Shown here one piece after another: positions 27,314 to 60,465 of a stretch of 64,000 nucleotides of DNA. Below the pieces are notes generated by a model, which was not told the origin of the DNA, did no database searches, and saw nothing but the letters and a program-made list of their open reading frames with translations. The position numbers and the translations under genes are program-made. How positions within the stretch are numbered: position 1 is the stretch's first letter; the number at the start of each line of letters is the position of its first letter. Source of the DNA: Candidatus Zixiibacteriota bacterium (GTDB taxonomy: Bacteria; Zixibacteria; MSB-5A5; GN15; JAAZOE01); contig JAGLON010000002.1 of the NCBI GenBank assembly GCA_023138975.1, positions 202,378-266,377 on the forward strand. The letters are read 5' to 3'.

Positions 27314-28303
27314 TTAGGCGCTGATTGGTTCGGATGAAATTAATGCGGTCAAGCGAGTTGTTACCAGTTCTGAACTTATACCGGAATGTTTCGAAGCCCT
27401 TTCGGCAGCCAGCATGATTTCGCTGCTGGAAAGGTTTAAGTTTTCGTGAATCAAAATACACTGTTGATCAGAAATCTTGGCAGCCGTCGCCGAATATAAC
27501 TCATAAATGAATCGCAGGGCAAAGCGGCCATCTTCCGGTAGTCTGTCGTCGATAGCCTCAAGCATATCCATTGCTTTGGTTTGATAATCTTGCAGGCGGT
27601 TGAAATACCACTTGATCATATTAGTGAATTTCAAACTCTGCTGCCAACCGTTGGCATTTTTCGCAAGCTCATTTTCGTCAATATTGAACATATTGGTTGT
27701 ATCTTTATCGAGATAAATCAGAGGTTCCTTGCCCGATGTGAAATCCTTTTTGAAATCTCGTAAAACATGGACTAAATAGGAGAATAAGGCTAAGGGACGA
27801 GCGGCCTCGCGAATGTCAATTTCAGGTAAAACTATTTGTCCTCGATCATCGAAACTACTGGCGGCCAAGTGCATAAAGATAGATGCCGGGGCCACTGCAG
27901 CGCCTTCTGAATAATCTAAGAATTGATTAAAAGTCTCGAAACGGTCGTTTTCGATATCAAACTTCATCGCTCCGGCCAGTTCGATAAAAGGCCATGAGGG
28001 AATCTCAAAACGAGCAATTGCCAGTTTTATATCCTGAGCGTACGGCACTGAATCATCAAATTTCCGGTTAGCAAACATTTCTATAAACCGGTCGATTTCT
28101 GCGCTGATTTCTTGTTTGCACAGGGTTGACATATTGCCCGCGGAGCGGTTATCATCAACGATGTCATCGGTCAATCTCATAGCCGCATAAGTAGCCAAAA
28201 AGGCGCGGAACTTATCGTCAGGCTCCAAAAAGTTTGCCGCCAAATATAGATTGGGAGTGCCCTTGCGGGCTAAATTCTGGCTGAATTCGTAGTTGTTTGT
28301 CAT
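27314..28303 (-). CDS. Squalene/phytoene synthase family protein
   Basis: Head-to-head prenyl synthase fold, 329 residues. Both aspartate-rich motifs are present: DDIVDD at 46-51 and the second in RDFKKD with D183 and D187. The EGAAVAPASIFMHL block between them also fits. Such enzymes condense two prenyl diphosphates to squalene, dehydrosqualene or phytoene. No desaturase, cyclase or hopanoid gene is near, so the product cannot be named. No strong ribosome site precedes the ATG at 28303. Likely single-gene unit with the palindrome at 27267 as terminator. Confidence 0.8.
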   Translation of the reverse strand: MTNNYEFSQNLARKGTPNLYLAANFLEPDDKFRAFLATYAAMRLTDDIVDDNRSAGNMSTLCKQEISAEIDRFIEMFANRKFDDSVPYAQDIKLAIARFEIPSWPFIELAGAMKFDIENDRFETFNQFLDYSEGAAVAPASIFMHLAASSFDDRGQIVLPEIDIREAARPLALFSYLVHVLRDFKKDFTSGKEPLIYLDKDTTNMFNIDENELAKNANGWQQSLKFTNMIKWYFNRLQDYQTKAMDMLEAIDDRLPEDGRFALRFIYELYSATAAKISDQQCILIHENLNLSSSEIMLAAERASKHSGISSELVTTRLTALISSEPISA

Positions 28304-28363
28304 TATATTACATTATACGAGGGTAGAAAGATAAAGTTGATATTTAACTGATTTTAGCGTCTT

Positions 28364-29620
28364 TTATTTACGTTTTATGATTCGGGAGTAGAATTCCCGT
28401 AACATTTGAACGATAATTTTACGTGTTGCGGGAAAATCTGAAAAATCGATATCATCAAGAAACAGGCGGCGGAAATTGAAATAATCCCTAAAATTATAAC
28501 CGACATTCCGCCCCTTAAATACATTTAAAACCATTGAAAGAGTATCAGAGAATAATATTCTGGCGCGAACATTTTTACTATTTATAGTTTTAGGAATATC
28601 CCGGTTTAATGCTGCCTGGCATAACAGGGTTGGAAAATGTACTCCGTTGGCCATAGCCAACGGCACCGAGCCCCAGAACCGGGGATTGGCTTCAAGGAAC
28701 TTGTAATCGGGAAGTTTTCCCTGCTGCACCATTTCCTTGAATTCAAACATTACGACACCATGCCAATTCAGAGTTTGCAGAAGTTTGCTTAACTGATCCG
28801 TCAATCGGAGGTTATCAATATCCCATGGTTCCCGGCTGGTGGAGGCGCCTCCGGAAATTGGGAACTCACGCACCCGCTTATGTCCAAAATGCTGCAATAG
28901 ATTTGGTTTATCCCAGTGGATAGAAGAAATACCCGTGCCGCGACCAACGATATTTTCCTGAACTATGATATCCTCGTTTTCCAGTTTTGCACAGGCAGTT
29001 TTCAATTCGTCTACGGAATGGACACGATAGACTCCGACGGAAGATGTGGAACGGCGGGTTTTAACAATCAGCGGAAATACAATCCCGGAGTGATCGTTGA
29101 TGAAGTGATCAGCGGTTTTATAGTTTTCCATCGCTGAATAGGAAACGCCGGTCAAACCGGCTTTGGCTACAACCTCCTGAACCGGTTCGGTAGTATCTCC
29201 GATTGACCAGCATCGCGGCAAATAGGCAACGTCAATATTCCCACCGAGGAGTTCAAAGAAATATTTTTTATCATGAAAAAGAAGCAGCTTGTGATAGTTT
29301 TCAAAGGGAAACAAAGCATGTTTTTCGATGATGTCTTTTTTCTTTGCCAGAGCCATCATTTCGGCAGCATTGACCGGAAGAACAATATCAATGTTCTTTT
29401 CCTGAATGAAATCAACTACTGATTTGACAAAAGCATCTTCGTCTGTTTTTGGATTAGGGTATATTAAATTATAAGATTTATCTTTAATACAGTTGGAAAA
29501 CAGTCCCGGCGCACCGGCGCGATAATCAGCTCCGCACACATCAAAGCCGTTATCGGATAAATTTTTGAGGATATTCCAACCCTTGACGAAACAATTGAGA
29601 ACGAGAACTCGAGTGCTCAT
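28364..29620 (-). CDS. ATP-grasp ligase-like protein
   Basis: 418 residues of the carbamoyl-phosphate-synthase-like ATP-grasp group. An N-terminal pre-ATP-grasp domain (VLVLNCFVKGWNILKNL) is followed by the nucleotide-binding region with PLIVKTRRSTSSVGVYRV and the metal-binding FKFLEANPRFWGSVPLAM block, read as FLEANPRFWGS. Enzymes of this type join a carboxylate to an amine. The acceptor is unknown. ATG 29620 is preferred over the upstream GTG 29629. It begins 21 bases after a polysaccharide-deacetylase-like gene, a pairing seen in surface-glycan or exopolysaccharide modification loci, so the two are probably one operon. Confidence 0.8.
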   Translation of the reverse strand: MSTRVLVLNCFVKGWNILKNLSDNGFDVCGADYRAGAPGLFSNCIKDKSYNLIYPNPKTDEDAFVKSVVDFIQEKNIDIVLPVNAAEMMALAKKKDIIEKHALFPFENYHKLLLFHDKKYFFELLGGNIDVAYLPRCWSIGDTTEPVQEVVAKAGLTGVSYSAMENYKTADHFINDHSGIVFPLIVKTRRSTSSVGVYRVHSVDELKTACAKLENEDIIVQENIVGRGTGISSIHWDKPNLLQHFGHKRVREFPISGGASTSREPWDIDNLRLTDQLSKLLQTLNWHGVVMFEFKEMVQQGKLPDYKFLEANPRFWGSVPLAMANGVHFPTLLCQAALNRDIPKTINSKNVRARILFSDTLSMVLNVFKGRNVGYNFRDYFNFRRLFLDDIDFSDFPATRKIIVQMLREFYSRIIKRK

Positions 29621-29641
29621 AGAACGCACCCACTTAGTCTG

Positions 29642-30645: not shown

Positions 30646-31383
30646 CTAAACAATCGGCAGGATGCTGTCTGTGTCGAATTCAGATTTAATATTCCGGCAC
30701 ATTTTTGATAGTGCGCTCTTACCCCGAAGCTCGTCAACGAATGATCCATGATCAGCACTATAAAGCATAATCCGAGGTAATTCATCCTTTTTTGCCAAAG
30801 GAAGCACTCGAAAAGATAATGTCGTGAGCATTCCCAAAGTGCCCCAGCTATTATAGAATAATCGGGAAACATCATAACCCGATACCGATTTAAACGTTAA
30901 TGCTCCGGGTGTGACAATAGAACCATCTGGCAGGACAGCCTCGACCGATAGTAAATACCGGCTAAAGGGAACAGTGTGAGTCCCATCGCTCCCGGCAAGT
31001 CCGACCGCCAGAGCTCCTCCGAAGGAGCCGGGGTAATTGGTTTCACCAAATGGAAACCATAGATTATGTTCAGCCAGAGTTTTATTGATCTCTTTTAGCG
31101 GGTACCCGGATCCGACCGTTATATAGAAGTCTTTGTCACCAATTTCAATGACGCCGTTTAGGCGATCTGATTTTAGGACCAGCATTTCAGAGAATGTCAT
31201 GCCAACGGGGTCAATTTCATTTCCATAACCGGAAATGAATCCCTGTTGTTTATATTTTCGCATGCGATTGAATATGTCGGCGATTTCGGCTGATGACTCC
31301 GGATGAAAGGTGGCAATGCTTTTTTGCCATGTGAGGCCGAGGGGATACTCTGTTAGAATATCATTTTCAAGTTGATTATTCAT
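30646..31383 (-). CDS. Short FAD-binding oxidase, GlcE-like
   Basis: About 245 residues with the PCMH-type FAD domain: LKSDRLNGVIEIGDKDFYITVGSG, then GSFGGALAVGLAGSDGTHTVPFSRYLLSVEAVLPDG and KSVSGYDVSRLFYNSWGTLG. The C-terminus (KSEFDTDSILP) matches the usual family end. It is shorter than GlcE or GlcD and lacks their cap domain, as in subunits of glycolate oxidase-like complexes. No glcD or glcF gene is near. ATG 31383 is chosen because TATATAAT lies just upstream; a GTG at 31410 would leave only 40 bases to the divergent gene. Confidence 0.75.
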   Translation of the reverse strand: MNNQLENDILTEYPLGLTWQKSIATFHPESSAEIADIFNRMRKYKQQGFISGYGNEIDPVGMTFSEMLVLKSDRLNGVIEIGDKDFYITVGSGYPLKEINKTLAEHNLWFPFGETNYPGSFGGALAVGLAGSDGTHTVPFSRYLLSVEAVLPDGSIVTPGALTFKSVSGYDVSRLFYNSWGTLGMLTTLSFRVLPLAKKDELPRIMLYSADHGSFVDELRGKSALSKMCRNIKSEFDTDSILPIV

Positions 31384-31392
31384 GTGTGATGT

Positions 31393-31400
31393 TATATAAT
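31393..31400. promoter_or_regulatory. Possible divergent promoter region
   Basis: TTATATAATAAAG lies in the 67-base gap between the minus-strand FAD gene and the plus-strand membrane/TPR gene. It could serve as -10 in either direction. No convincing -35 is visible. Confidence 0.3.
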
Positions 31401-31450
31401 AAAGTGTCACATCATGGGCAAGTTTTATTTAACAAGAGTGGACAATCTCG

Positions 31451-33481
31451 ATGGCACAAGGACGAAGCAATCGAAGTACCACATCTGTTGCAATTGTAGG
31501 TATAGCCTCATTGGTTTTAGTTATGCCTGTGATCGCTGTTTTATTGCCACAAATGCGGGCTTGGGGATTTAATCATCTTAGTTTTCTGCCGGCCGGGTTT
31601 ACCTGGGCTTATGTCTTATTATCTGCCGGTTCTTTGATCCTGTTGTTTAAACCGGGATATGCAGCGCAGGTTTATAATGCTGCCGCAGGCTTTACATTGG
31701 GCGATCAAAACTGGCGGAAATGGTGGATAATCGCGGGTCTGTTTTCGGTTATCTTTTGGCTTTTTCGACTACCGGTTTTTTTACTCGGCGACAGCTATTC
31801 AGCGGTAGCCAATATCTCCAATGATCTTCCAGTTATCTACAAGTGGTCTGAAATTGGCGCGATAGTCATTGTTAATTCATTAGCTCAACTGGTTTCAGGA
31901 CTTACAGACAATCCCGGCTTGTTGTCCTATAATATAATAGCAGTTCTTTCCGGAGGCGTGACGGTATTATTATTCCTGGCCATTGCCTATGAATCAGGTA
32001 ATAATCAGCGGGAGAGAATGCTGGTTTTCGGTCTATCTATTTGTGCCGGATGGGTTTTATTATTTTTTGGTTATACCGAAAACTATCCGGTTCTTTGGCC
32101 GTTTGTTACCGGATACATATTTTTCTCGCTTCGCTATTTGAATAAAAAAGGCAGTCTGATTGTCCCTGCGGTATTTCTGTTGGCCGCATTGATACTTCAC
32201 CTCCAGATATTGTTTTTCCTGTTTTCATTTGCGATAGTACTGTTTTCGCACGGCAAACCTGCTAATTTTTATTACCGTTTCAAAAAAAGTATGATTGCGG
32301 GGTATGCGCTAGTCATCCTAATGGGCGTGATTCTCTTTGCCTGGCTATATCAAAACTCCTTAGAGTTTCGCATATATATTATTCCGTTATTAGGCAGGTC
32401 AGGAATTTCCGGCGAGTATTCTTTACTATCGCTCCGGCATTTAGCCGATATAGGAAATCAATTTATTATCCTCATGCCGATATTTCCGGTGTTACTGGTA
32501 GCAGGGTGGCAAGGTTGGAAAAAACTTACTTCGGATAAAATAAATCAGTTTTTACTGCTGCTTACTCTCGGTAGTCTGGCGTTTTTACTCCTTATTGATC
32601 CCAAGCTTGGTATGGGACGCGACTGGGATCTGTTTGCATTGGCCGGGTTGCCTCCGATGTTGCTGCTTGCTCGCGGCATCATTGCTAAATCGGATAAACT
32701 TGGAAATTATTTTCCAGTAATTATAATTATACTTTTAACTACAATAATGCCGTTTTTTGCGGTAAACCTCGACTATAATGGCGCGATTACTAAATATGAA
32801 TTTTTACTCAATCTTGATTCTTACCGGAGCAGATCTGGCATTACTTCTTTGCGCGAGCATTATTTGGCGCAGGGAAACATTGAGGCGGTCGATAGTCTCA
32901 ATGAAGTTCTGGTAAGCACTTTTCCCTCGACACGGTTAGCGCCATTGGCGTATAACCTTATAGCGATCGGGCGATTTGACGAAGCCAAACTACTTATCGA
33001 CTCAATGGCTATATTAGAACCAAATGCTATTGATGTGTATAATTTACGCGGGACATATTATTTAAAACTTGGTCGAATGAAACAAGCTATAGATGAACTG
33101 CAAATAGCGGCGCGATTGGGTCGATATGATAGCCGGCCGCTGGTAAACCTTGCTCAAGCTTATAGTCAAACCCACCAGTTTGACAAAATGATGACTGTAC
33201 TTCGAGACGCTCAAGCGCGTAATCCGGGCTCGATTCTCGTTGCCGAGGGGTTGGCAACCGGATTTTACGCATTGGCTCAATACGACTCAGCGCTGGTTTA
33301 CAGCGTTAATATGATTGAGTCGGATCCGGCCCAACCATTGGGATATTATTATGCCGGATTCAGCGCCTATAATATGGGGGACAAGCAAACTGCATCTCGA
33401 ATGTTCACCCGGTTTTTAGAATTAGCTCCCTCCCATCTTCAGGCGAGCCAAGTGAAAGAAATAATGCGTATGATGAAATAA
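31451..33481 (+). CDS. Polytopic membrane protein with TPR tail, tandem paralogue 1
   Basis: 676 residues, about ten membrane segments followed by a C-terminal TPR domain (about 490-676). Blocks shared with the two following genes are RAWGFNHLSFLP (36-47), LLGDSYSAVANI (111-122), KWSEIGAI (131-138), FGYTENYPVLWPF (206-218) and IDPKLGMGRDWDLF (382-395). The layout, with membrane segments, an acidic residue in an early outer loop (GDS) and a TPR tail, resembles GT-C glycosyltransferases of the TMTC type. Transfer of sugar from a lipid carrier is a reasonable guess, not shown. It begins 67 bases from the divergent FAD gene. Confidence 0.6.
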   Translation: MAQGRSNRSTTSVAIVGIASLVLVMPVIAVLLPQMRAWGFNHLSFLPAGFTWAYVLLSAGSLILLFKPGYAAQVYNAAAGFTLGDQNWRKWWIIAGLFSVIFWLFRLPVFLLGDSYSAVANISNDLPVIYKWSEIGAIVIVNSLAQLVSGLTDNPGLLSYNIIAVLSGGVTVLLFLAIAYESGNNQRERMLVFGLSICAGWVLLFFGYTENYPVLWPFVTGYIFFSLRYLNKKGSLIVPAVFLLAALILHLQILFFLFSFAIVLFSHGKPANFYYRFKKSMIAGYALVILMGVILFAWLYQNSLEFRIYIIPLLGRSGISGEYSLLSLRHLADIGNQFIILMPIFPVLLVAGWQGWKKLTSDKINQFLLLLTLGSLAFLLLIDPKLGMGRDWDLFALAGLPPMLLLARGIIAKSDKLGNYFPVIIIILLTTIMPFFAVNLDYNGAITKYEFLLNLDSYRSRSGITSLREHYLAQGNIEAVDSLNEVLVSTFPSTRLAPLAYNLIAIGRFDEAKLLIDSMAILEPNAIDVYNLRGTYYLKLGRMKQAIDELQIAARLGRYDSRPLVNLAQAYSQTHQFDKMMTVLRDAQARNPGSILVAEGLATGFYALAQYDSALVYSVNMIESDPAQPLGYYYAGFSAYNMGDKQTASRMFTRFLELAPSHLQASQVKEIMRMMK

Positions 33482-33511
33482 AGTAAAAACCTTTCTCAAA
33501 GGATTGTCGTG

Positions 33512-35545
33512 ATGACCTCACCATCTTCCGACACTCAGACAACAATCAGGCCGGTTATCGCCGGAGCTTTGGCCTGTTTATGGCTTTTGCACTGGCTACC
33601 GTTTTTGTTTCCTCAGGCACGATTCTGGGGGTTTAATCATCTTCTATTCCTTCCGATGTGGGGGCGAGTTGTTTTCACTATCGGAGGATTCTTTTGTCTG
33701 CTTTTATTTTTCAACCCAATAAGACAATTTGCGGGAAGAGCATTTGCTTCGCTGAGCGAGTTCTTATTTGCACATCACCCCAGAGTTCGATGGTCTATCG
33801 TTGGATTGGCTTCCATTGCCATCTTCTGGTTACTTAAGCCGGAATTGTTCTGGCTGGGCGACAGTTACTCGGTCGCGGCGAATATTGGAAATGATTTACC
33901 TGTTATTTATAAGTGGTCTGAAATCGGCGCCATTTATATCGCCAATTTTATTGGCGGTTTATTACCGGGACAATCCGAGGAAGTCGCGAGATTAGCCTAT
34001 GCCATAATTGCGGTAATCTCGGGAGGAGCCTCGGTTTATTTATTCTTTGGAATTGCATCAGAATTATCTGAGGATAATCAATCACGGTTAATGTCCTGGT
34101 GTGTGATGATCTTCGGTGGGTGGATAGTTTTATTCTTCGGCTATACTGAGAACTATCCGGTTCTCTGGCCGTTGATACTCGGATACATTTACTCAGCAAT
34201 TCAGTATTTAAAAGGGAAAAACCTTCTGATAGTCCCGGCCATGTTTTTAATCATGGCTCTGATCATTCATTTGCAAGCGTTGTTTTTTACGCTGTCGTTT
34301 ATGGCGCTGATGTTCTCTCGGGGGAGAGGGGCGAAGTTTTACTACCAGTTTAAAAAAATAATCTGGCTCGGGCTATTTATTATATTTTGTGCGGGAGTTT
34401 TTAGTTTTATTCGATTGTATATGAACTCGCTCGAGTTCAAACTGTACTTGATACCGTTTTTTACTCCGCATGCACCGTCAATTGACTATACTCTTTTCTC
34501 CCTTGCACATTTATTTGATGGTCTAAATCTGCTCTGGCTGATGTCGCCAATTTTACCGCTGTTAATCATTCTCGGGTGGAAGTATCGCAAAGAACTGCTT
34601 AAATCCAAAACTGATCTGTTTTTTGGGCTTATGACAATGGGGGGGATTGTCTTTTTATTTATAATTGATCCCAAGCTGGGAATGGGACGCGATTGGGATC
34701 TGTTTGCTCTTACGGCTCTGATGCCGACATTATGGCTCATTAGAAAAACTCTTAACCAACTACAAAGCAATTATTTCCCTGCCATTGCGGTACTTTGTAT
34801 TGTTCTGACATTCCCGTTTGTATCGGTGCAACTGCAGGAAAAACCGGCGATTGATAATTATCAGTACATGCTGGCGCAGGATATCGAACGTTCACGGACA
34901 GGTCTGGTAATATTGAAAAATTATTATAGTGAAAATAGTAATTTTGCGGCTGCCGATAGTCTGGAGCGCGTTTTAGTAAACTCTTTCCCCCCCCACATAT
35001 TGGTTCCATTAGCCTATAATTATATGGATAACGGGCGGTTACAAGCTGCCAAAGAAATCATTGATTCCATTGTCTATTTAAATCCATACTCGACCGAATC
35101 ATTGAGCCTGCTGGGGATGTATTATTTTAAAATAGGACAGTATCAAAAAGCTCTTCCTTATTTAGAGGCTTCGGCGATGATGGGACGCTATGACAGCCGG
35201 TTATTAGTGACGCTTGGGACAGTTTATAGTAATGACAATCAACATCGAAAGGCGATTGAAGAATTTCAACAAGCTCGCACACTTAATCCCGATTATATCC
35301 CCGTTTACGAAGGGCTCTGTACCTCATATTTTGGTTTGCATGATTATGACTCTTCATATTATTACGCGATGCAGGGCATTCAGCGCGACAGCTCCTTGGC
35401 CAATGCGTATATGATAGCAGGTTTTAGCGCCTATAGAATGAAGAGAAGCGATGCCGCGAAATACTATTTTAAAACATTTCTGGCATTGGCACCAGAAAGC
35501 TCATTCAAAAGCCATGTCGAGAAAACCCTATTGACAATTCGTTAG
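33512..35545 (+). CDS. Polytopic membrane protein with TPR tail, tandem paralogue 2
   Basis: 677 residues from ATG 33512, which has AAAGGA eight bases upstream; a GTG directly before it is in frame. It has the same order of blocks as paralogue 1: RFWGFNHLLFLP, WLGDSYSVAANI, KWSEIGAI, FGYTENYPVLWPL and IDPKLGMGRDWDLF, then TPR units such as YNYMDNGRLQAAKEIIDSI and MYYFKIGQYQKALPYLEAS. The start lies 30 bases after the first gene, so co-transcription is likely. The paralogues are well diverged at nucleotide level, so the duplication is old and all copies appear to be under selection. Confidence 0.6.
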   Translation: MTSPSSDTQTTIRPVIAGALACLWLLHWLPFLFPQARFWGFNHLLFLPMWGRVVFTIGGFFCLLLFFNPIRQFAGRAFASLSEFLFAHHPRVRWSIVGLASIAIFWLLKPELFWLGDSYSVAANIGNDLPVIYKWSEIGAIYIANFIGGLLPGQSEEVARLAYAIIAVISGGASVYLFFGIASELSEDNQSRLMSWCVMIFGGWIVLFFGYTENYPVLWPLILGYIYSAIQYLKGKNLLIVPAMFLIMALIIHLQALFFTLSFMALMFSRGRGAKFYYQFKKIIWLGLFIIFCAGVFSFIRLYMNSLEFKLYLIPFFTPHAPSIDYTLFSLAHLFDGLNLLWLMSPILPLLIILGWKYRKELLKSKTDLFFGLMTMGGIVFLFIIDPKLGMGRDWDLFALTALMPTLWLIRKTLNQLQSNYFPAIAVLCIVLTFPFVSVQLQEKPAIDNYQYMLAQDIERSRTGLVILKNYYSENSNFAAADSLERVLVNSFPPHILVPLAYNYMDNGRLQAAKEIIDSIVYLNPYSTESLSLLGMYYFKIGQYQKALPYLEASAMMGRYDSRLLVTLGTVYSNDNQHRKAIEEFQQARTLNPDYIPVYEGLCTSYFGLHDYDSSYYYAMQGIQRDSSLANAYMIAGFSAYRMKRSDAAKYYFKTFLALAPESSFKSHVEKTLLTIR

Positions 35546-35600
35546 TATTAAGAGTGAGGAAATCTTGACCGGATAAGTTTATATGTGTATTGTGTAACAA

Positions 35601-37643
35601 ATGATGGTATCGAAACCCAAAAATAATCTAATAATTATTCTGGCGCTGTTCCTCTGGAGTTTGCGCTTTATACCATTTATCTGGCCGGATGGCCGATTAT
35701 GGGGATTTAACCATCTGATATTTACCGACGATGCTTTTTTCTATATCTATGCCTTGTCGGGTCTGCTTATTGCCGGAGCTTTAATTCCGGTAGTGAGAAA
35801 TTCTTATTTACTGGCGATGAAATTCCCGGCTCAGTTATTTGAGCGAAGAAACCGGTTTGCATGGGTGCTGTTTTCATTAGCTTCTATGGCTGTTTTCTGG
35901 CTCTTTCGGATGCCGACTAATTTGCTTGGCGATGGCTATGCCGTGATAAACAATATCGGCAATGATATTCCGGTCGTGTTCAAATGGTCCGAAATCGGCG
36001 CTATAAAGATTATCTATTTTGTGTCTCAACTGCTGCCTTATGAGGGACTGGTTAGAGGCGAGTACGCCTATGCGACACTGTCCGTTATATCGGGAGGTAT
36101 AACTGTATACTTCTTCTTTGAAATCGCTTATGAAATAGGTCTCGATAAAGAACGCCGGTTATTGTCATTTTGTCTGCTGTTATTCTCCGGGTGGACGTTA
36201 CTGTTTTTCGGGTATGCGGAGAACTATCCGGTTTTGTGGCCGTTTATCAGCGCATATTTATTTTTCAGTATTCGGTATCTTTCTGATCGCTGTTCGCTTG
36301 TTATTCCTTTGATAATTCTCCTGCTTGCTTTGACCCTGCATCTTCAAATCTTTTTCTTTGCCGGTACCATATTGGTATTGCTGTTTGCTAAAGCAAAAGG
36401 AAGAAAGCTATTCGACCGATTTTCCAAACAAGTTTGGGCAGGTATCATTATTTTGATGCTGGCGGGGATATTATACTTTATCTGGCAATACCAGACTTCG
36501 CTGGGGTTTCAGGTTCATTTCTTGCCGCCGTTTTTTGGTCGGCCGATTGCCCCGGACTATGCGATGTTTTCGCCCATCCATTTTGCGGATATCATAAACC
36601 TGTTATTACTTGTTGTTCCTCTGTTTCCCATACTGGTGGTTGTTTCTATAAAAGGTTTTAAGAATGTCATCAAAGATTCAATAAATCTATTTTTACTCGT
36701 TTTTACTCTCGGTGCGGTAGTTTTTATACTCATCATTGATCCCCGGCTGGGTATGGCACGGGACTGGGATTTATTCGCCCTGAGTTGTCTGGGGCCGGCT
36801 GTGCTGTTCATACGGTTGACGGTTCGGCAACTATCAGATTCTCGTTCAATCCCGGTTCTAATTCTATTGGCTATTATATCTACGGCGCCATATATCGCCT
36901 CTAATACTTCACGAGACTCATCACTGGCGTACTTTGAATCTCTGCTTGAGATGGATAAATCCCGTTCCCGTTCCGGTCTGGTAATGCTGCGAGATTATCT
37001 TAAAAATCAAGGGGAGTCTGAGCGGGCGGTTTCGGTTAATAAATCGCTTATTGAAGCCTTTCCGCAAAGTGAAACTGCGAGCCGGGTGACCCGCCTTCTT
37101 GATGCTCGTCAATACGACAACGCCCTTATTCTGGCGGATTCGATCTATCGTATAAATCCCTTTGTGGTGGATGGCATGAATATGAAGGGGATGTCTTTTT
37201 TACGCCTGCGAGTTTTTGACAGCGCCCTGTACTATCTAAGTCAATCAAGAGAACTGGCGCGCTATGAGCACCGTACTTATGTGAATCTGGCCGAGCTGTA
37301 TGCTAAGACCGGACAAAAAGAAAAAATGTGGGACAACCTTCGTCATGCGCAGCGTTTGAATCCTAATAGTCTTAATGTCATCCAACCGATGGCGATGTCG
37401 TTTTATGCTGACGGTATATATGACTCGGCTTTAGTTTACGGACGCAGACTCCAAAAAATTGCCCCGGAGCACAAAGACGGATATCTTGTAGTCGGGTTGG
37501 CTTCGGTGATTTACAAAGATTTCATCACAGCCAAGGCCAATTTGGTTAAGTATTTGCAGATAGCGCCATCATCACCGCAGAGCGAAGTCGCCCGCAAGAC
37601 ATTGTTGATAGTCGAAGAACGTCTGGGGGGTGCGGGGGGATGA
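35601..37643 (+). CDS. Polytopic membrane protein with TPR tail, tandem paralogue 3
   Basis: 680 residues with the same plan: RLWGFNHLIF, LLGDGYAVINNI (DSY becomes DGY), KWSEIGAI, FGYAENYPVLWPF and IDPRLGMARDWDLF (MGRD becomes MARD). TPR units fill the last 190 residues. The gene follows paralogue 2 after 55 bases and ends in an intrinsic terminator that overlaps its stop codon, so the three genes form a likely operon from 31451. If these are GT-C enzymes, the substitutions near the putative active-site loops could mean different donors or acceptors. Confidence 0.6.
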   Translation: MMVSKPKNNLIIILALFLWSLRFIPFIWPDGRLWGFNHLIFTDDAFFYIYALSGLLIAGALIPVVRNSYLLAMKFPAQLFERRNRFAWVLFSLASMAVFWLFRMPTNLLGDGYAVINNIGNDIPVVFKWSEIGAIKIIYFVSQLLPYEGLVRGEYAYATLSVISGGITVYFFFEIAYEIGLDKERRLLSFCLLLFSGWTLLFFGYAENYPVLWPFISAYLFFSIRYLSDRCSLVIPLIILLLALTLHLQIFFFAGTILVLLFAKAKGRKLFDRFSKQVWAGIIILMLAGILYFIWQYQTSLGFQVHFLPPFFGRPIAPDYAMFSPIHFADIINLLLLVVPLFPILVVVSIKGFKNVIKDSINLFLLVFTLGAVVFILIIDPRLGMARDWDLFALSCLGPAVLFIRLTVRQLSDSRSIPVLILLAIISTAPYIASNTSRDSSLAYFESLLEMDKSRSRSGLVMLRDYLKNQGESERAVSVNKSLIEAFPQSETASRVTRLLDARQYDNALILADSIYRINPFVVDGMNMKGMSFLRLRVFDSALYYLSQSRELARYEHRTYVNLAELYAKTGQKEKMWDNLRHAQRLNPNSLNVIQPMAMSFYADGIYDSALVYGRRLQKIAPEHKDGYLVVGLASVIYKDFITAKANLVKYLQIAPSSPQSEVARKTLLIVEERLGGAGG

Positions 37644-42847: not shown

Positions 42848-43705
42848 TTATCTAAATGCTTTTTCATCATAGAGATTAACATGAGATGCTTCAATAAGCT
42901 TGTTTCTATCAAGATGTTTCATAAAACTATACTTTTCAATTAGTGGTTTGAATTTTCCCCTCCCTCTACCAGAAATGCAATTATAGAATAAAACCACAAG
43001 CTCATCACCGGACATAATAGCTCTAATTATATTGGTGTACTCTTTTTTTCTATTTGGATTTACTTCTGAGTTATCAACCAATTTAAATATATTATATAAT
43101 AGACGCATATAATTAGATAGCATCGGGTAAAATTCATTGAAGATTCGGGCGTAACTAGTGCCAATAATGTCATGGACTTTATATTGTCCAATCTGTGAAT
43201 TTATATTTTCGGAGTAAACTTTTTTTAGACGAATTGTTATTCTTCTAAAGCTAGCTGCTGAATTTAAGCTAGTATGGTGTTTGCCTTCTAATAAATCTTG
43301 AGAAAATTGTTGATGTATTTTTAATAATTGAAAAAAACGATTCTCAAAATTCTGTATTTCCATTTGTTCTTTTTGGCCTTGAAGTTGTTTTTTCTGCCCA
43401 GCTAACTCTTTGCGGTTTAGGACTAATTCCTCTCGTTGAAGTATTAATTCTTCTCGCTGTAATCCTAATTCTCTTTTTTGAAGAAAAATAGCATAAATGA
43501 GCCCCATAAATGCCAATACAGAGAATAACGATGTTGAAGCACCAAACATGTCCCCAAAGATACCTTTATCTGCCCAGTTTTCAGAGGGTACTAAAAAGGG
43601 AACTATTAGATTAGCTATCCAAAAAAGTAGTGCAAAAATACAGACCGGCCAAAACCATTTCGGTACTGCCTTTTTATCTTCTTTTTTATCTTTTTGTTTT
43701 TCCAT
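42848..43705 (-). CDS. Putative phage abortive infection protein (putAbiC type)
   Basis: 285 residues: two membrane segments (about 18-40 and 50-70), a coiled coil with repeated QREEL/NRKEL units (about 71-115), then a soluble domain with FENRFFQLLKIHQQF, YNIFKLVDN, MSGDELVVLFYNCIS and KFKPLIEKYSFMKHL. These blocks match what I know of the putAbiC family, proposed to abort phage infection; the mechanism is not established. GAGAGG precedes the ATG. The gene is AT-rich compared with its neighbours, stands alone on the minus strand and sits between palindromic elements at 42746-42815 and 43763-43862. Acquisition by transfer is likely. Family assignment is from memory of motifs only. Confidence 0.65.
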   Translation of the reverse strand: MEKQKDKKEDKKAVPKWFWPVCIFALLFWIANLIVPFLVPSENWADKGIFGDMFGASTSLFSVLAFMGLIYAIFLQKRELGLQREELILQREELVLNRKELAGQKKQLQGQKEQMEIQNFENRFFQLLKIHQQFSQDLLEGKHHTSLNSAASFRRITIRLKKVYSENINSQIGQYKVHDIIGTSYARIFNEFYPMLSNYMRLLYNIFKLVDNSEVNPNRKKEYTNIIRAIMSGDELVVLFYNCISGRGRGKFKPLIEKYSFMKHLDRNKLIEASHVNLYDEKAFR

Positions 43706-46094: not shown

Positions 46095-46523
46095 TTACCC
46101 GATCTTAATTGTCAGCTTGCCGTCGCTGAATTCGACCGGGTAAACTGTCAGATTATTTAGTTTATCATTATTCAATATCTTGCCGGAATAATCATAGGTC
46201 GATTTTCCGATTGAACAACATTGTATCGTCTCTGTTCCGGGTACCGGGTCTAATCTCCGTTTAGCGTGCTCACAGTGATTCCTGTAGGCATGATACTCAT
46301 TGTCCTCGCCGTATATGACTAATACCCGGTTGGGTAGTTCTTTACTTTCGATACGAAGCGCACCGTTGACCGGATCAAGTTCTTTGGCTTGGTTCAAATC
46401 CACCGTTATCACACCGCTGGCATACGACCAGCAATCGTTGTTGGCCGGCAGTTCGGTCACGCATTTTCCAAACAGTCGCTGGAAGATTCCCCGTTTGAGA
46501 ATTTTGATTTTATTGTCACTCAT
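46095..46523 (-). CDS. Degenerate Rieske-like protein coupled to a repeat protein
   Basis: 142 residues starting at ATG 46523, which overlaps the stop region of the upstream gene by eight bases. The C-terminal half resembles a Rieske [2Fe-2S] domain: VLVIYGEDNEYHAYRNHCEH, then IQCCSIGKSTYDYSGKI and a closing VYPVEFSDGKLTIKI. The first ligand pair C84-x-H86 is present. In the second pair the cysteine is there (C102 or C103), but the histidine expected three residues on is isoleucine or glycine. It may not hold a normal cluster. There is no signal peptide although the partner protein is exported. Confidence 0.65.
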   Translation of the reverse strand: MSDNKIKILKRGIFQRLFGKCVTELPANNDCWSYASGVITVDLNQAKELDPVNGALRIESKELPNRVLVIYGEDNEYHAYRNHCEHAKRRLDPVPGTETIQCCSIGKSTYDYSGKILNNDKLNNLTVYPVEFSDGKLTIKIG

Positions 46524-48660
46524 CGAAAATCTCCAGTTCGGGAATGTGTCCGTTATCAGTATCAATGCCGATGCCAAAGTTGTTGTGTCCAAAGTTTTCG
46601 TGGTCTCTATCCAATGTCCGCCAGATAGCATTGTTGATGAACTTATCTGAGGCCGAAGTGGTGTTACCCTCAACCACAAAATAATTATCCGTGCCGTTGG
46701 CATCAATGAAAATTCCAGCCGATTTGGCATAGTAGCTGTAAGTGTGCAGTTCGGACGGCTTTTTAAACGCCTCACGGAACGAAGCGGCTCCAAAGCCTTC
46801 CTGACCTTTGTTATAGGTATAGGTGTCGGCTCCTTCCATATCAAAAAAGAATGCGAACGACCGTATCTGAGCCAGACCGTATGAAATAATTTTGGCTTCG
46901 TATTCGTCGTCTCCGGCCCGGTCGATAAAGAGCGCATTGGCAAAATCCCACCCAAAGCCCAGAGCGGCTCCGGCTGTTTCATAGAGTAAATGTTTGTCGT
47001 TGCCCTGTTCATCAATTAAGGCGCTGTTGCAAAAATGAGCCCCGGAAGCTTGCGTAAAATAGACCGACTTATAAACGTCGTCGCCTTCTCCGTCATAACA
47101 GAGACCGGTACCAAACCAATATCCGCATCCCAACGACCAGTTACCGGAGATATACTCATCATTGCCTTTAATATCTATAATTGCTCCAAGGCCACCGGCC
47201 CAGCTATGACCGTCTGAGCCGTCGCCGCGCCTACCAAAACCGGCTCCCTGAGCGTTATTGACATTGATCGAAAAATCGCTATGGTAATCACCCCGGTTTA
47301 CGACCTTGGAGGATGGTTCGGCGGTATAACTATCGTCACCGGAGTAATCAGCGAGGCAGCCGACGCCTCCGCCGACCCCGCCCATGCCTTGACCGTCGCC
47401 GTAAAGGTAATACTTATCATCACCGGCACAATCAATTGAGAGACCGATACCGAAATAGCCGCAGCCTTGAGCCGATGTTTCCGCTCGGTAATCGTCGCTG
47501 CCGTTTTTATCGAATAAAATACCCAAGCCAAAAAAACCGGCGCCTTGAGAAAAAACCGTTCCGGTATAACGATCAGAACCGTCAGCGTCATACAACAATC
47601 CTACTCCGAGAATCCCGGCGCCAAATGACGGTTTTTCTTTGGAAGTCTGGATGTAATTATCATTACCGCCTAAATCAATGGCGACTGAAATACCTCGATC
47701 CGGGCGAGAGGTCGCTCCAACCGGGCCGCTATAGGTATCGTCGCCTCCAAAATCAATAATCAGCAAGGCATCGTTTCCGTCAATGGTGTTGTTTTCGGTG
47801 CCTTTCAGGACAATGCGCCCGTATGGAGTAGGAAAGTCAAACGAGAAATCGGCCGGTATATTATGAATATATTTATGTACAGCTTTCTCAAATTTCTCGG
47901 CGGCTTCGGTCAGCTTTAATCCAGCATAGCAGAGAGATTCAAAATCGATTAATCCGGCGGCGTCATCAATTTCAGGATAATAAACTTGCCCATCCCCCTG
48001 CGTGTCGGCTATATCACGGATATAGAATATTTTCTGCCGTAACTCATGTGGGATATTCCGCAGGGCTATGTCACGCCATTTGACTGCATCGCGAATGTTT
48101 TCAACCAGCATTGCCAGCGGCTGGCTGATTCCTTCGGGCAAGTCCACGGTCTGGGCGGCGATATCTTTTCGTAAATCGGGCCAGTCAGCTTTTTTTCCAA
48201 AAGTGATATACTCGGTGTTTTGCCCGGCCTGAATGAAAATGTTTTCGATGGCCCTGATAAACGGCTTTTCACCGTCCGGAGCGCCAATCGTATTGGCTCC
48301 ATAGACTCGCATGCCGCCTATTTTTCGTTCGACACCCAAAAGGTAGGTCAAGCGATAGAGGTTATTTTCGAGACTGTCCAATAATTCAGGCGAACAGTAT
48401 CTTCGCACAGCTCCGGCGAATGATTTTGTGTAATCATAGAGCTTTAGCGGTTCGGCAAAGAGATCATCGAATGATTTTAGCTTATACGGAATGTCAGTTG
48501 GAAATCTGGTCCAATATCCTTTTGGGCTGTATCCCAAATCGGACCGGCTGAAGCCAATGGAATCAAGCGCGGCATCGAGTAAATCCGGCTTGTCCTGCCC
48601 GTACAGGCATGAAGCAGCCATAAAAATTATTAAGATGAATATTAGAGCGTGCGTTTTCAT
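46516..48660 (-). CDS. Exported protein with about twelve G-D/N-D-x-Y repeats
   Basis: 714 residues with a signal peptide (about 4-22). Residues up to about 275 form a helical region. The rest is a chain of roughly twelve units of 30-40 residues, each with a loop of type GGDDTY, GNDNY, GSDRY, GSDDY, GDDKY, GDDSY, GNDEY, GDDVY, GDDEY or GTDNY, followed by glycine-rich strands such as QGAGFFGLGILFD. The pattern suggests a parallel beta structure with acidic, perhaps calcium-binding, turns. It is not the classical RTX nonapeptide. GGAGG precedes the ATG. The Rieske-like gene is translationally coupled downstream. The function is unknown; a surface or periplasmic scaffold is possible. Confidence 0.65.
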   Translation of the reverse strand: MKTHALIFILIIFMAASCLYGQDKPDLLDAALDSIGFSRSDLGYSPKGYWTRFPTDIPYKLKSFDDLFAEPLKLYDYTKSFAGAVRRYCSPELLDSLENNLYRLTYLLGVERKIGGMRVYGANTIGAPDGEKPFIRAIENIFIQAGQNTEYITFGKKADWPDLRKDIAAQTVDLPEGISQPLAMLVENIRDAVKWRDIALRNIPHELRQKIFYIRDIADTQGDGQVYYPEIDDAAGLIDFESLCYAGLKLTEAAEKFEKAVHKYIHNIPADFSFDFPTPYGRIVLKGTENNTIDGNDALLIIDFGGDDTYSGPVGATSRPDRGISVAIDLGGNDNYIQTSKEKPSFGAGILGVGLLYDADGSDRYTGTVFSQGAGFFGLGILFDKNGSDDYRAETSAQGCGYFGIGLSIDCAGDDKYYLYGDGQGMGGVGGGVGCLADYSGDDSYTAEPSSKVVNRGDYHSDFSINVNNAQGAGFGRRGDGSDGHSWAGGLGAIIDIKGNDEYISGNWSLGCGYWFGTGLCYDGEGDDVYKSVYFTQASGAHFCNSALIDEQGNDKHLLYETAGAALGFGWDFANALFIDRAGDDEYEAKIISYGLAQIRSFAFFFDMEGADTYTYNKGQEGFGAASFREAFKKPSELHTYSYYAKSAGIFIDANGTDNYFVVEGNTTSASDKFINNAIWRTLDRDHENFGHNNFGIGIDTDNGHIPELEIFDE

Positions 48661-54265: not shown

Positions 54266-56959
54266 TTATTTGGTAAGAATCATTTTCATTGTCGCAGATA
54301 CTGTTCCAGCGGAAATCTTGTAAAAATAGATTCCCGAAGAAACCGCAGTGCCGGATGTGTTCTTAGAATCCCAGGCAATTTCAACCAATCCGGCTTCGGA
54401 CGCACCGGTGAAGCTATTTACCTTTTGTCCGGTGATATTGTAAATGTCAACCGTCCATTCGGATGCTGTATTCAAATCAAAACTGATGGTTGTTGTCGGG
54501 TTGAATGGATTCGGGAAATTCTGATGAACCGTAAACTTTTGAGGTAAGTTTCGGATAGTACTTTCCAAAACCGCTCCATTATACGTTGCGGCCTCAACCT
54601 CGATCAATTCGGCCGAACCATTGACAGGAATAGTCAGTTCGGTTTCGGAAGTAATCTTTTTGGTACCAATATTATATACCAGAACTCGCAGCTGCTTATC
54701 AATGACTTCGTAGACAACATCCATGCCATTATTGACAGTTGGCGTTCCGGCCAACCCGTCGATGTCAAATACGAACAGAGCCGCTCCGGCATCAATATCG
54801 GTATCAATGGACAGTTTGGTGCCGTCGAATGAGGCGTTAAAGAATGCTCCCGGTATCGGTTTGGGGTAGGCGACAGCATCGCCGATTATTATCCTGACCA
54901 GATAAACCAGATCCGCTACGGTAAGGGGCGTCCCATCGGCGTTTATATCCGAAGCGGCGATAGAGCCGTCAACATGATCGTAGAACGCGCTCGCACCGGA
55001 GATAAAGAAATTGGTCAGCATTACCGCATCGGAGATTTCATTGGAAATGCCGTTCATGTTGACGTCACCACGGTCATCAATTTCGTTCTTGTCAATAATT
55101 TTGATGCCGCCGTTGAATAAATCAATAAAGCGAACGGGGGGGGTTTTGGTTGAAGAACCGGCGAAATCCAATATACAAGAATTCGGGACTCCATAATAAG
55201 TCGGGAACTCGGTGTCGTTATCGGTCACATCAATATAGGTGTCGATTCCATCCGAGCCATAGTAATTATAAACATACCGGGAAATCGCCAGAGTATCACC
55301 CGATGGAACCGAAATAGAATTATCACCGCAGTCCATCCAAAAGAATTTCACGTGTGCGAGCTGATTATTGGCGTTGACATCAGAAGTGACAAAGAAAGTT
55401 AAGTTAGCGATTATCTCATCTGTTGCAGATGCACCACCAATACAGTCATAATCAGGATGATAGGGGCCGTTGTTGGTTTCGGCTAACCCGACTAAACGGA
55501 TTTGACCGGTAGGACACGCGCTTCCGCAATTACCATTCCAACTCTGCCGATAGGTGAAATACTCCCAGCCGCAGTCAGAAAAATACTGTCCCAGGGATGC
55601 CTCGGAGAAAGTTAGCAGAGTGTTATCATAGGTTAACAGGAAATCAAAACCACCGATAGGATCAGAGCCTTTGGTCTGTCGAACCGGTAAATCGATAAAA
55701 TGGCCCTGAATGACGTCGGGTACCATATCTATTTTTACTTCATACCATTCACATGTCGTAACAGCAATTTCAAAACTACATTCTGTTGAGTTAGTAAAGC
55801 CATCTGTAACACCAACGGTGATGATATGATATCCAATATCCGCAATCGTTGGGTTCCAAGTATAGAGGCCGGTGGAAGCATCAATGCTTCCGGGGCCGGA
55901 AACGAGAGAAAATGTCAAGTTGTCACATTCATCGGCGTCCGTCGCGGATATATCTGTCTTGGTAATCGGATTGTCAAAACAGGCTGGATTAAAGTATATA
56001 CCACAATCGATGGTCGGAGCATTGTTGGTTACATTTACATTGATAGTATAGAAGTTACAACCCTCTGTCGAATGATAGGGATCAACTGTAAAAACTGTTA
56101 CGGTAACAGCTGTGCCGACATCGGCCGCAGTCGCAGTATAGGTTACCTCACAGGTACCGTCACCATTGTCAGTTACAATAGCAGAGCCGCTGCCGGTGTT
56201 TTCGGTAAGGCCGAAGGAAATCTGATCCGATTCACCATCTGAGGCGGAAAGAGTTACCGAATTGCTGCCGCAGTGATCGACATCCATTGAGGTCGGGAGA
56301 CCGGAGTCAAATTCAGGGCACCATTGCCCCGGATCCGTAACAACAAAACATAAACCACCTTCAGCCCATGTTACTGCCGGAGCTAAGGTCGAACCGCCGC
56401 CGTCGATAAAGACAAACGGAGCCGCCGGAGGAATGAAACCTGAGTCCATACACAGAGTTTCGTATTCTGCTACACCAGGACCGGTAGCGGTAAAGTGCAG
56501 GGACAACATATGTTCCATGGCACCAACAGGTAAGCCGCCCATCAAAGCCACACCACCGATGTTAATAGTATCCGGTAAGTTACCGTCGAGACCGGCATTA
56601 GCCATATCAAGACCAGTATCACTTACGATAAGGTTACCCAGATCCCATACGGAAGCTGTAGGAAACATACGTGAAGCTGCATTAACAGTTAAGGCTTCAT
56701 AATAACCAAAACCGTCGGCTTGGGCGGGATAACTTAATGTAACTCCACCTTCCGGGTTATAAAGATTGAAACCAAATCCAATACCGCCAAGCTTAATATC
56801 ATTTTCTACCGAGATTTGCATCTCGACAGTTTGGTCAGTCCATATTGTGTCAGCTTTAACACCCGGACCAGTGGCAACTATATCGACTACGTTTGCAGCT
56901 GTTAAAAACCCGCCACAGCACAGGCATACGCCTAATGTAAAGAGCATCACTCTTTTCAT
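54266..56959 (-). CDS. Large secreted multidomain protein with T9SS-type C-terminal sorting domain
   Basis: 897 residues. Order: signal peptide; a ~190-residue domain shared with the next three genes (GIGFGFNLYNPEGGVTLSYP, TASVWDLGNLIVSDTG); two Ig or cadherin-like domains (about 210-400, with IDASTGLYTWNPTIADIGYH); a cohesin-like domain (IGGFDFLLTYDNTLLTFSEA); a dockerin-like EF-hand pair (RGDVNMNGISNEISDAVML, INADGTPLTVADLVYL); and a C-terminal sorting domain (HQNFPNPFNPTTTISFDL to SSGIYFYKI). The last is the por/T9SS type, so the protein is probably exported through the outer membrane and attached to the surface. AAGGA lies ten bases before the ATG. Own terminator. Confidence 0.8.
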   Translation of the reverse strand: MKRVMLFTLGVCLCCGGFLTAANVVDIVATGPGVKADTIWTDQTVEMQISVENDIKLGGIGFGFNLYNPEGGVTLSYPAQADGFGYYEALTVNAASRMFPTASVWDLGNLIVSDTGLDMANAGLDGNLPDTINIGGVALMGGLPVGAMEHMLSLHFTATGPGVAEYETLCMDSGFIPPAAPFVFIDGGGSTLAPAVTWAEGGLCFVVTDPGQWCPEFDSGLPTSMDVDHCGSNSVTLSASDGESDQISFGLTENTGSGSAIVTDNGDGTCEVTYTATAADVGTAVTVTVFTVDPYHSTEGCNFYTINVNVTNNAPTIDCGIYFNPACFDNPITKTDISATDADECDNLTFSLVSGPGSIDASTGLYTWNPTIADIGYHIITVGVTDGFTNSTECSFEIAVTTCEWYEVKIDMVPDVIQGHFIDLPVRQTKGSDPIGGFDFLLTYDNTLLTFSEASLGQYFSDCGWEYFTYRQSWNGNCGSACPTGQIRLVGLAETNNGPYHPDYDCIGGASATDEIIANLTFFVTSDVNANNQLAHVKFFWMDCGDNSISVPSGDTLAISRYVYNYYGSDGIDTYIDVTDNDTEFPTYYGVPNSCILDFAGSSTKTPPVRFIDLFNGGIKIIDKNEIDDRGDVNMNGISNEISDAVMLTNFFISGASAFYDHVDGSIAASDINADGTPLTVADLVYLVRIIIGDAVAYPKPIPGAFFNASFDGTKLSIDTDIDAGAALFVFDIDGLAGTPTVNNGMDVVYEVIDKQLRVLVYNIGTKKITSETELTIPVNGSAELIEVEAATYNGAVLESTIRNLPQKFTVHQNFPNPFNPTTTISFDLNTASEWTVDIYNITGQKVNSFTGASEAGLVEIAWDSKNTSGTAVSSGIYFYKISAGTVSATMKMILTK

Positions 56960-57195
56960 CGCTAATATTTTCCTTACTAAATATTTCTAAGCAGTACTTA
57001 AATAAGTAAATACTCACAAGTGTAATAGATTATATATTACCAGGATCGGTAGAGAGAAATTGGCGGTGGGAGGAATTCCCTGCCGAAACCTTATTTTCTA
57101 TACGAAATATACCTTCTGCATTCATTCTGTCAAGCACTTTCGTAAATAAAAGGAAGAAAATTATAATTTTGTTAGTTAAGATAGGCAAAGGGCTA
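56960..57195. other. Intergenic region upstream of the large secreted protein gene
   Basis: About 236 bases, AT-rich. I see no gene, RNA or clear promoter. It separates the 54266 gene from the terminator of the three-gene secreted-protein unit. Confidence 0.4.
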
Positions 57196-57233
57196 TAAAT
57201 AAAACAAGGCAGTAAGCCCAAGCTTACCGCCTT
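57196..57233 (-). terminator. Intrinsic terminator of the three-gene secreted-protein unit
   Basis: On the minus strand AAGGCGGTAAGC pairs with GCTTACTGCCTT (one G-U pair) around TTGG, followed by GTTTTATTT. It lies 24 bases after the stop at 57258. Confidence 0.85.
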
Positions 57234-57257
57234 AAAAAATGAGAGTTCATATAAATT

Positions 57258-58415: not shown

Positions 58416-58445
58416 GGCAACCCTCTCTATATTATATAAAGCATT

Positions 58446-59579: not shown

Positions 59580-59622
59580 GACAACCCTCTCTCTTTACAT
59601 ATCTTACTGCATTTGTAGTTTA

Positions 59623-60465
59623 CTACAAACAGGAACTGCAACTTATAGGAGGCCCGTTTCTGAATATATAATCTATAAGCCTAACGGCATCAGCAGCATT
59701 AACTTCACAATCACTGTTTACATCGGAGCAGGCTCTATCAAGGGGGGCTTCTCCGTTTTTAAAGACATAGTTTATTATGAAAACAACATCTCCGAGATTT
59801 CCATAGCCGTCAAAATTGGCATCGCCCGGAACCGGGACACGATTGATGACCGAAAAACATAGATCGTCGGAATCCCAGCCGATTATGGGAGCAATGGTCG
59901 ACCCACTACCGCCGATAAAGAAAAACGGACACCCCGGTGGAGAGCAAGCTGAGTCTATGCACAGCGTTTCGTATTCACCGGCACCGGAACTAGTGATAGT
60001 GAAGTGCAACGACATCATGTGTTCCATTACACCAGCATCCATACCACCCATCATAGCCACACCACCAATATCAATAGTATCCGGTAAATTACCGTTCAGG
60101 CCGCAATCCGCTAATGAATAGCCGGTATCAGAAACGATAAGGTTACCCAGATCCCATACAGAAGCTGTCGGATACATACGTGAAGCCGGGTTAACAGTAA
60201 AGGCCTCATAATAACCATAACCGCCAACTTGGGCAGGATAAGATAAGCTAACTCCGCCTTCAGGGTTAGTGAGCTTATACCCAAGCGCAATCCCACCTAA
60301 TAACTCATCGTTTTCAATCGATATTTTTACTTCATATGGAATGTTGGTATAGAGAGTGTCTCTTATGGAACCAGCTCCGACAACTTCCATATCGACTATA
60401 TTGGCGGCAAAAACAGTAGATGATAGGAAAAGCCATGCCAAAAGTAAGAGTAGAAACTTCTTCAT
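59623..60465 (-). CDS. Secreted dockerin-type I protein, short paralogue
   Basis: 280 residues: signal peptide, the shared ~190-residue domain (GIALGYKLTNPEGGVSLSYP, SRMYPTASVWDLGNLIVSDTG) and a dockerin pair with its own sequence (GDANFDGYGNLGDVVFIINY, SDVNSDCEVNAADAVRLIDY). It lacks the Ig-like part of the other members. AGGAGG lies seven to eight bases before the ATG, a very strong ribosome site, and this is the first gene of the likely three-gene unit. Its function is unknown; the shared domain resembles a cell-surface recognition or cohesin-like fold, which is a guess. Confidence 0.8.
   Translation of the reverse strand: MKKFLLLLLAWLFLSSTVFAANIVDMEVVGAGSIRDTLYTNIPYEVKISIENDELLGGIALGYKLTNPEGGVSLSYPAQVGGYGYYEAFTVNPASRMYPTASVWDLGNLIVSDTGYSLADCGLNGNLPDTIDIGGVAMMGGMDAGVMEHMMSLHFTITSSGAGEYETLCIDSACSPPGCPFFFIGGSGSTIAPIIGWDSDDLCFSVINRVPVPGDANFDGYGNLGDVVFIINYVFKNGEAPLDRACSDVNSDCEVNAADAVRLIDYIFRNGPPISCSSCL

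Follow-up and report, generated by a model that had tools for sequence, protein, structure and literature searches.

Three tandem genes of a Zixibacteria bacterium represent an unnamed family with a predicted GT-C membrane fold and TPR tails

Glycosyltransferases of fold type C (GT-C) take polyprenol-linked donors, and a 1-6-4 organisation of their membrane helices is given for POMT, TMTC and others in passages of a published account (PMC6801728). The same passages present an acidic motif soon after the first transmembrane domain as a general rule, place conserved areas of GT-C families in external loops (ELs) 1, 2, 3 and 5, and assign donor binding to Arg649 in EL5 of Pmt. For two animal groups, TMTC and TMEM260, sections of another article report a proposal that tails of tetratricopeptide repeats (TPRs) recruit substrates, and call for further studies of how these tails choose acceptors (PMC11292533). 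We analysed a stretch of 64,000 nucleotides from a Candidatus Zixiibacteriota bacterium (assembly GCA_023138975.1, contig JAGLON010000002.1; the window below), in which three tandem genes, here called genes 1–3, encode multi-span membrane proteins with TPR tails. Judged from sequence, they belong to a widespread family without a name, annotated only by its TPR tail and present in at least three phyla. We consider it probable that these proteins are extracytoplasmic GT-C transferases that use a polyprenyl-phosphate sugar, and that the choice of acceptor, probably a protein, lies with their periplasmic TPR tails.

The structure of the gene 1 protein was predicted with AlphaFold2 from an input alignment of 20 sequences, which gave a pLDDT of 86.3 and a pTM of 0.83 for the full-length protein and 85.3 and 0.89, respectively, for residues 1–451. 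When the membrane half was compared with known structures, rows 1–48 of the comparison were all GT-C proteins (Z 19.7 to 7.9), and row 49 was an unrelated transporter (Z 3.7). The highest scores were obtained with Pmt2 (19.7), Pmt4 (19.6), ArnT and ALG12 (19.2 each) and human oligosaccharyltransferase OST-A (19.1), followed by AftB (16.7), PglB (16.6), DPY19 (15.0), the Emb proteins (11–13), PIG-U (10–11) and PimE (8). The alignments covered 328 residues at 4.6 Å for 6p25_B (Z 19.7), 291 residues at 4.2 Å for 5f15 (Z 19.2) and 335 residues at 5.7 Å for 8pn9_A (Z 19.1). ArnT (5f15) was also the top match of Foldseek (E 9.3e-4), and a profile of the four paralogues of this genome (see below) found no match among PDB sequences up to E 1. 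The GT-C assignment, which the original prediction had offered as a cautious guess, is supported by the predicted fold and also by the topology and distant homology described below; the comparison with GT-C folds that it had proposed as a check came out on the GT-C side. The model thus supports a GT-C membrane fold. Since the GT-C matches begin near residue 70–88 in nearly all rows, the exception being AftA (8if8, from residue 46), helices 10–31 and 48–66 of gene 1 form an extra N-terminal hairpin.

The predicted core consists of helix 1 (88–104) and a long loop, six helices (155–182, 186–205, 212–230, 237–249, 251–264 and 278–300) and another long loop, and the last four helices (331–353, 363–381, 392–411 and 414–440). 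Two of the six, 237–249 and 251–264, are separated by a single residue; in STT3A a single hydrophobic stretch is likewise read as helices 5 and 6, according to passages of PMC6801728. On the evidence of the model helices and the positive-inside count, gene 1 fits the 1-6-4 plan with the N-terminus inside and the C-terminus outside. With loops assigned to the two sides from the model helix list and residue counts, the loops of 38 Zixibacteria sequences contained 21.2% lysine plus arginine on the inside and 6.9% on the outside. Strongly conserved columns (below 0.7 bit) in the same sequences numbered 27/112 in outside loops, 0/57 in inside loops and 21/265 in helices. The conserved residues accordingly lie in the extracytoplasmic loops of the model topology, and not on the cytoplasmic side, the placement that the original prediction had named as contrary to its proposal.

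Conservation was counted in, and a tree built from, 44 of 50 sequences, namely those with a length of at least 400, from three phyla. Residues G113, D114, L204, G207, Y208, Y212, H250, D391, W392 and D393 are unchanged in 44/44 members, E210 in 43/44, which greatly exceeds chance; W38 and G39 in the WGFNHL block of the hairpin are each kept in 43. D114 is presumably the catalytic or a metal-binding acid: it is the single acid of the GD(S/G)Y motif, which contains no DD or DE pair, and its place agrees with the acidic residue expected in loop 1 of GT-C proteins. In the same loop, K131 occurs in 34/38 Zixibacteria members and in 0/6 outgroup members, and E134 in 35/38 and 2/6, respectively. At the end of EL4, H330 is present in 43/44 and D333 in 42/44 members, the remaining two having glutamate. 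R390 in EL5 presumably binds the donor phosphate. The positions of these features are collected in Table 1.

Table 1. Positions of the described features in the window.
Feature	Position	Strand	Details and basis
Gene 1: GT-C membrane half and TPR tail	31451..33481	+	676 aa, ATG start
Gene 1, residues 10–66: extra N-terminal two-helix hairpin with WGFNHL block	31478..31648	+	AlphaFold2 models
Gene 1, residues 73–440: GT-C core, 11 helices in 1-6-4 order	31667..32770	+	Model, structural matches
Gene 1, GDSY (113–116): first external loop of GT-C core	31787..31798	+	D114 in 44/44
Gene 1, KWSEIGAI (131–138): first external loop	31841..31864	+	Conservation in Zixibacteria members
Gene 1, GYTENYP (207–213): external loop 2	32069..32089	+	Y208 and Y212 in 44/44, E210 in 43/44
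Gene 1, HLQ (250–252): external loop 3, tip of helix pair 237–249/251–264	32198..32206	+	H250 in 44/44; helix break in model
Gene 1, S327, H330 and D333: end of external loop 4	32429..32449	+	Conservation
Gene 1, DPKLGMGRDWD (383–393): external loop 5	32597..32629	+	R390 in 43/44; D391, W392 and D393 in 44/44
Gene 1, residues 492–675: TPR superhelix, predicted extracytoplasmic	32924..33475	+	Pfam, AlphaFold2, structural match
Gene 2: paralogue with all key residues	33509..35545	+	678 aa, GTG start, next codon ATG
Gene 3: paralogue with all key residues, weaker TPR signal	35601..37643	+	680 aa
FAD_binding_4 oxidase, GlcE/GlcD-like, head-to-head with gene 1	30646..31410	-	254 aa; Pfam, profile matches

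The open reading frames of 676–680 residues were found exactly where the original prediction had placed three tandem genes. The gaps of 27 (genes 1–2) and 55 bases (genes 2–3) would allow co-transcription; a promoter scan gave 17 sites against 16.4 expected, i.e. the chance level, and is therefore uninformative. In an alignment of 694 columns, gene 2 is 43% and gene 3 38% identical to gene 1. The motifs said to be kept in all three genes are real, although only KWSEIGAI is letter-identical and the others vary: LLGDSY reads WLGDSY in gene 2 and LLGDGY in gene 3, the motif GYTENYPVLWPF of gene 1 reads GYTENYPVLWPL in gene 2 and GYAENYPVLWPF in gene 3, and IDPKLGMGRDWDLF is replaced by IDPRLGMARDWDLF in gene 3. 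RxWGFNHLxF is an additional block common to the three. None of the genes looks dead, because every key residue is kept in all of them.

The plan of a multi-span half followed by a TPR tail was likewise borne out in genes 1–3. The C-terminal TPRs are all that Pfam and NCBIfam identify in these proteins, with no convincing match to either database in the membrane halves. In genes 1 and 2, TPR models of Pfam scored above their cut-offs; none did so in gene 3 (best TPR_8, 19.4 of 25.7 bits), where NCBIfam TPR models match with E of about 1e-10. The best structural match of the gene 1 tail was the TPR protein 2pl2 (Z 21.6). Since it is preceded by an odd number of helices, the tail is predicted to lie on the outer side.

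When the membrane halves of the four paralogues were used as a profile, 113/132 genomes of the phylum (Zixibacteria) matched, with up to 10 copies each. The copies are often in tandem, the longest noted array being five in a row (G088, 2878029–2887740). Gemmatimonadetes and Chloroflexota records were among the 14 loci returned by one scan of genome contigs, and a wider profile matched in 20/64 Gemmatimonadota genomes, a phylum set assembled around the Gemmatimonadetes record L047. A literature search that covered mainly open-access papers brought up no account of the family.

To place the family, profiles were compared with hhalign. An alignment of 50 members against 28 TMEM260-like (PF11028) sequences of the same phylum gave a probability of 94%, an E of 1.5e-7 and a score of 68, these values being reached only with the deeper alignments (an earlier comparison with four TMEM260-like sequences was weak, at 6.5%). 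The reversed profiles reached 30.3 and 29.9; when columns were shuffled within blocks, ten runs gave scores between 16.0 and 29.6. The aligned block pairs E-x-Y of the TMEM260-like proteins with GYxENYP and their histidine with H250. Taken by itself, the N part gave a match at E 0.0012 (control 0.15). The C part matched collinearly with it at E 0.001, against 0.025 and 0.058 for its controls, and here their RDRDYFF is paired with RDWDLF. Because the score of 68 compares with at most 30.3 in 12 controls, we regard the family as a distant relative of the TMEM260-like proteins, not as a member: PF11028 had no match in the window genes even at E 1, and elsewhere it reached E 0.18 in 1/20 members, with locus L034 below the cut-off at 15.4 of 24.2 bits. 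Proteins that do match PF11028 occur in 130/132 genomes of the phylum; the genome of the window has four such matches.

The link to PMT_2 was weaker (probability 84%, E 7.9e-6; the score of 52.6 compares with 20.9 and 22.1 for reversed profiles), the PMT_2 alignment consisting of the seven matches of this genome and one related neighbour gene of locus L041. Eight PMT_2-type sequences compared singly did not match clearly (20.5% at best), nor did an AftA-like neighbour (0.1%). The PF13231 cut-off was not reached: there was no match in the window genes, and the best E was 0.0053, in 1/20 members. The TMTC/DUF1736 model had no match up to E 1 in the Pfam scans of the window genes and 20 members, which did not include a direct TMTC profile comparison. 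Since neither Pfam definition, PF11028 or PF13231, is reached and the loop-1 motif differs, the proteins are filed as a separate GT-C family; what is new is an unnamed GT-C family and not a new kind of enzyme.

The genome contains a fourth paralogue on another contig (G000:C19:190286-192283), which is 33% identical. In the 44-member tree, gene 1 clusters with copies from sister genera, a clade to which gene 2 is also attached, while gene 3 and the fourth copy stand apart. Given several weak forks and the meeting of long branches, no finer orthology is claimed. The long branches and the separate position of gene 3 and the fourth copy lead us to reject a recent triplication and to regard the gene set as old. 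Identities in the core were 47, 42 and 43% for the pairs 1/2, 1/3 and 2/3, and 39, 33 and 25% in the tail. As the catalytic part is shared and the tails differ most, the tandem copies probably serve different acceptors and do not duplicate a single task. This divergence is no more than suggestive of one chemistry with several acceptors, since the gap between core and tail is moderate and tails often diverge faster.

We infer a donor, an acceptor and a three-way split of labour along the following lines. A polyprenyl-phosphate sugar would be made in the cytoplasm and flipped outward. R390, together with H330 and D333, would hold the donor phosphate, perhaps with a metal ion, and D114 of loop 1 with E210 would activate the acceptor or bind a metal. 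The sugar would then pass to the acceptor, most likely an exported protein, recruited by the TPR tail. The original prediction had proposed a search for lipid-linked sugar genes, and a candidate was found in the same genome: a GT2 protein whose match to dolichol-phosphate mannose synthase (5mlz) has an E of 3.3e-31. Since the genome also has seven PMT_2 matches, polyprenol-linked donors are likely to be available. The co-occurrence did not extend to linkage, as the candidate polyprenyl-phosphate-mannose synthase is on another contig (C43), apart from genes 1–3. This weighs against the transferase reading, as do three further points. Proteins of the GT-C fold can be non-catalytic, as with PIG-U among the structural matches, no Pfam GT-C model reached its cut-off in any scanned member, and no TPR was found by Pfam in the Chloroflexota members L049 and L050, so that the tail appears not to be required by all members.

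The most serious alternative is that these GT-C transferases assemble an envelope glycan or a lipid-linked saccharide instead of glycoproteins, the TPR tails joining enzymes or binding assembly partners and the copies adding successive sugars. The structural matches include ArnT, AftB, ALG12 and AftA, the acceptors of which are not proteins. Moreover, genes for a PMT_2-type GT-C protein and an AftA-type arabinofuranosyltransferase adjoin family members in one genome (G066; loci L041 and L042, on two contigs). AftA_N was, however, found in just 27/132 genomes, the genome of the window not being one of them, as against 113/132 for the family, and the known TPR-tailed GT-C enzymes, TMTC and TMEM260, have protein acceptors according to PMC11292533. 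We therefore regard a glycan or lipid acceptor as rather unlikely, yet as the alternative to be taken most seriously.

It would be surprising if the proteins had a GT-C-like scaffold without transferase activity, as PIG-U has in the glycosylphosphatidylinositol transamidase, with the TPR tail organising an envelope complex. The PIG-U chains among the structural matches and the possibility that tandem copies form subunits of one assembly are in keeping with such a role, but the Z scores are much higher for active enzymes than for PIG-U, and the charged residues of the loops persist almost throughout the 44 members, which span three phyla, while the rest diverges. Still less credible is another type of multi-span protein with a TPR tail, such as a transporter or an O-antigen ligase or polymerase. 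Hydropathy alone was compatible with this before structure prediction, and family models leave the membrane half unnamed; against it, a transporter appears only after 48 GT-C rows in the structural comparison, and the profile links lead to GT-C families. A transferase with a protein acceptor hence remains the preferred reading. A bolder version of it, to which we give somewhat less than an even chance, is a separate bacterial protein O-glycosylation system of distant TMEM260 kinship, multiplied in tandem in Zixibacteria and Gemmatimonadota, in which one core chemistry would serve exported proteins specific to each tail.

If the preferred reading is correct, a large family known by its TPR tail alone would act in extracytoplasmic glycosylation in three phyla or more, which would point to glycoproteins or glycans that have not yet been looked for in Zixibacteria. 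It would also provide a bacterial comparison for acceptor choice by the TPR tails of TMTC and TMEM260, and the TMEM260-like link would help to approach the evolution of a gene family involved in human disease.

Gene 1 is preceded by a divergently oriented FAD-dependent oxidase gene (Table 1), the product of which is short and devoid of the usual C-terminal half. By eye, such a pairing of oxidase and family member was seen in at least 17 of the 78 genomes with an oxidase at E 1e-25 or better, and comprised five f1, five f2 and seven f4 genomes; many f2 genomes had no such pairing among the matches listed. G066 was counted as paired despite one intervening gene, which encodes a PMT_2-type protein (26.2 bits vs a cut-off of 26.1), and G025, with a distance of 3.1 kb, was not. 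DprE1 was considered as the identity of the oxidase and rejected, since GlcE/GlcD match far better (E 1.2e-21 vs 0.0015). A true DprE1-like oxidase is encoded on another contig (G000:C40:8553-9731, locus L126; 366.6 bits, below the curated 500), and among 21 genomes searched so strong a match occurred only in this genome and G070. AftA-type homologues were found in the 27 Zixibacteria genomes mentioned above, one of them at L042:2557-4470, where the AftA-like gene of G066 follows a family member on a contig other than that of the paired oxidase; in 14 control genomes the AftA search matched only in Corynebacterium glutamicum. An arabinan pathway was rejected as the general role, given the GlcE/GlcD-like neighbour, the location of the DprE1-like gene and the limited occurrence of AftA_N. 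A squalene/phytoene synthase-like gene adjoins an ATP-grasp gene at 27314–29629 (minus strand) of the window; this pair lies beside the FAD oxidase in L041, and in L038 the ATP-grasp gene is kept next to it. Downstream of gene 3, genes for an aldehyde dehydrogenase and a thiamine pyrophosphate enzyme look metabolic, and their order is kept in close relatives.

Elsewhere in the window, four secreted proteins whose N-terminal regions are repeated are encoded side by side at 54266–60465 (minus strand). At their C-termini, Pfam identified a Por_Secre_tail/FlgD_ig sorting domain in one and a dockerin in another, and the other two are dockerin-like by eye; they are possible substrates of an exported glycosylation. 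A protein of 714 aa, rich in GGDD/GNDxY-like repeats and without a Pfam match, is encoded at 46516–48660 (minus strand), and a putAbiC (putative phage abortive infection) protein at 42848–43705 (minus strand; Pfam E 9.5e-23). Beside the fourth family copy, a frame at L004:4110-4607 (minus strand) runs through repeated HSRENGNP/MDPCFRRGD units and looks like an interspersed repeat.

Among described systems, the TMEM260-like proteins (PF11028; human TMEM260 is GT117, a protein O-mannosyltransferase) are the closest by profile. They are likewise GT-C proteins with collinear E-x-Y, H and RD-x-D-like blocks, and human TMEM260 also has an extracytoplasmic TPR tail, according to sections of PMC11292533; loop 1, by contrast, carries WDCGEF in 28/28 of their sequences and GD(S/G)Y in the present family. 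PMT_2 proteins (PF13231; bacterial PMT/ArnT-like GT-C) share the fold with a weaker profile link, and no common loop-1 or loop-5 motif could be demonstrated. Yeast Pmt1-Pmt2, fungal Pmt4 and ArnT have the fold in common with residues 73–451 of gene 1 at 8–12% identity, but PMTs carry a MIR domain, as described in parts of PMC7759382, where this family carries TPRs. TMTC1-4 (GT105) are laid out alike, with a GT-C module at the N-terminus and extracytoplasmic TPRs at the C-terminus, again according to sections of PMC11292533, with 11 helices instead of the 13 that the extra N-terminal hairpin gives the present proteins. Should the tentative assignment to a bacterial O-glycosylation system hold, which we put at a little below even, it would parallel the TMTC/TMEM260 solution of animals.

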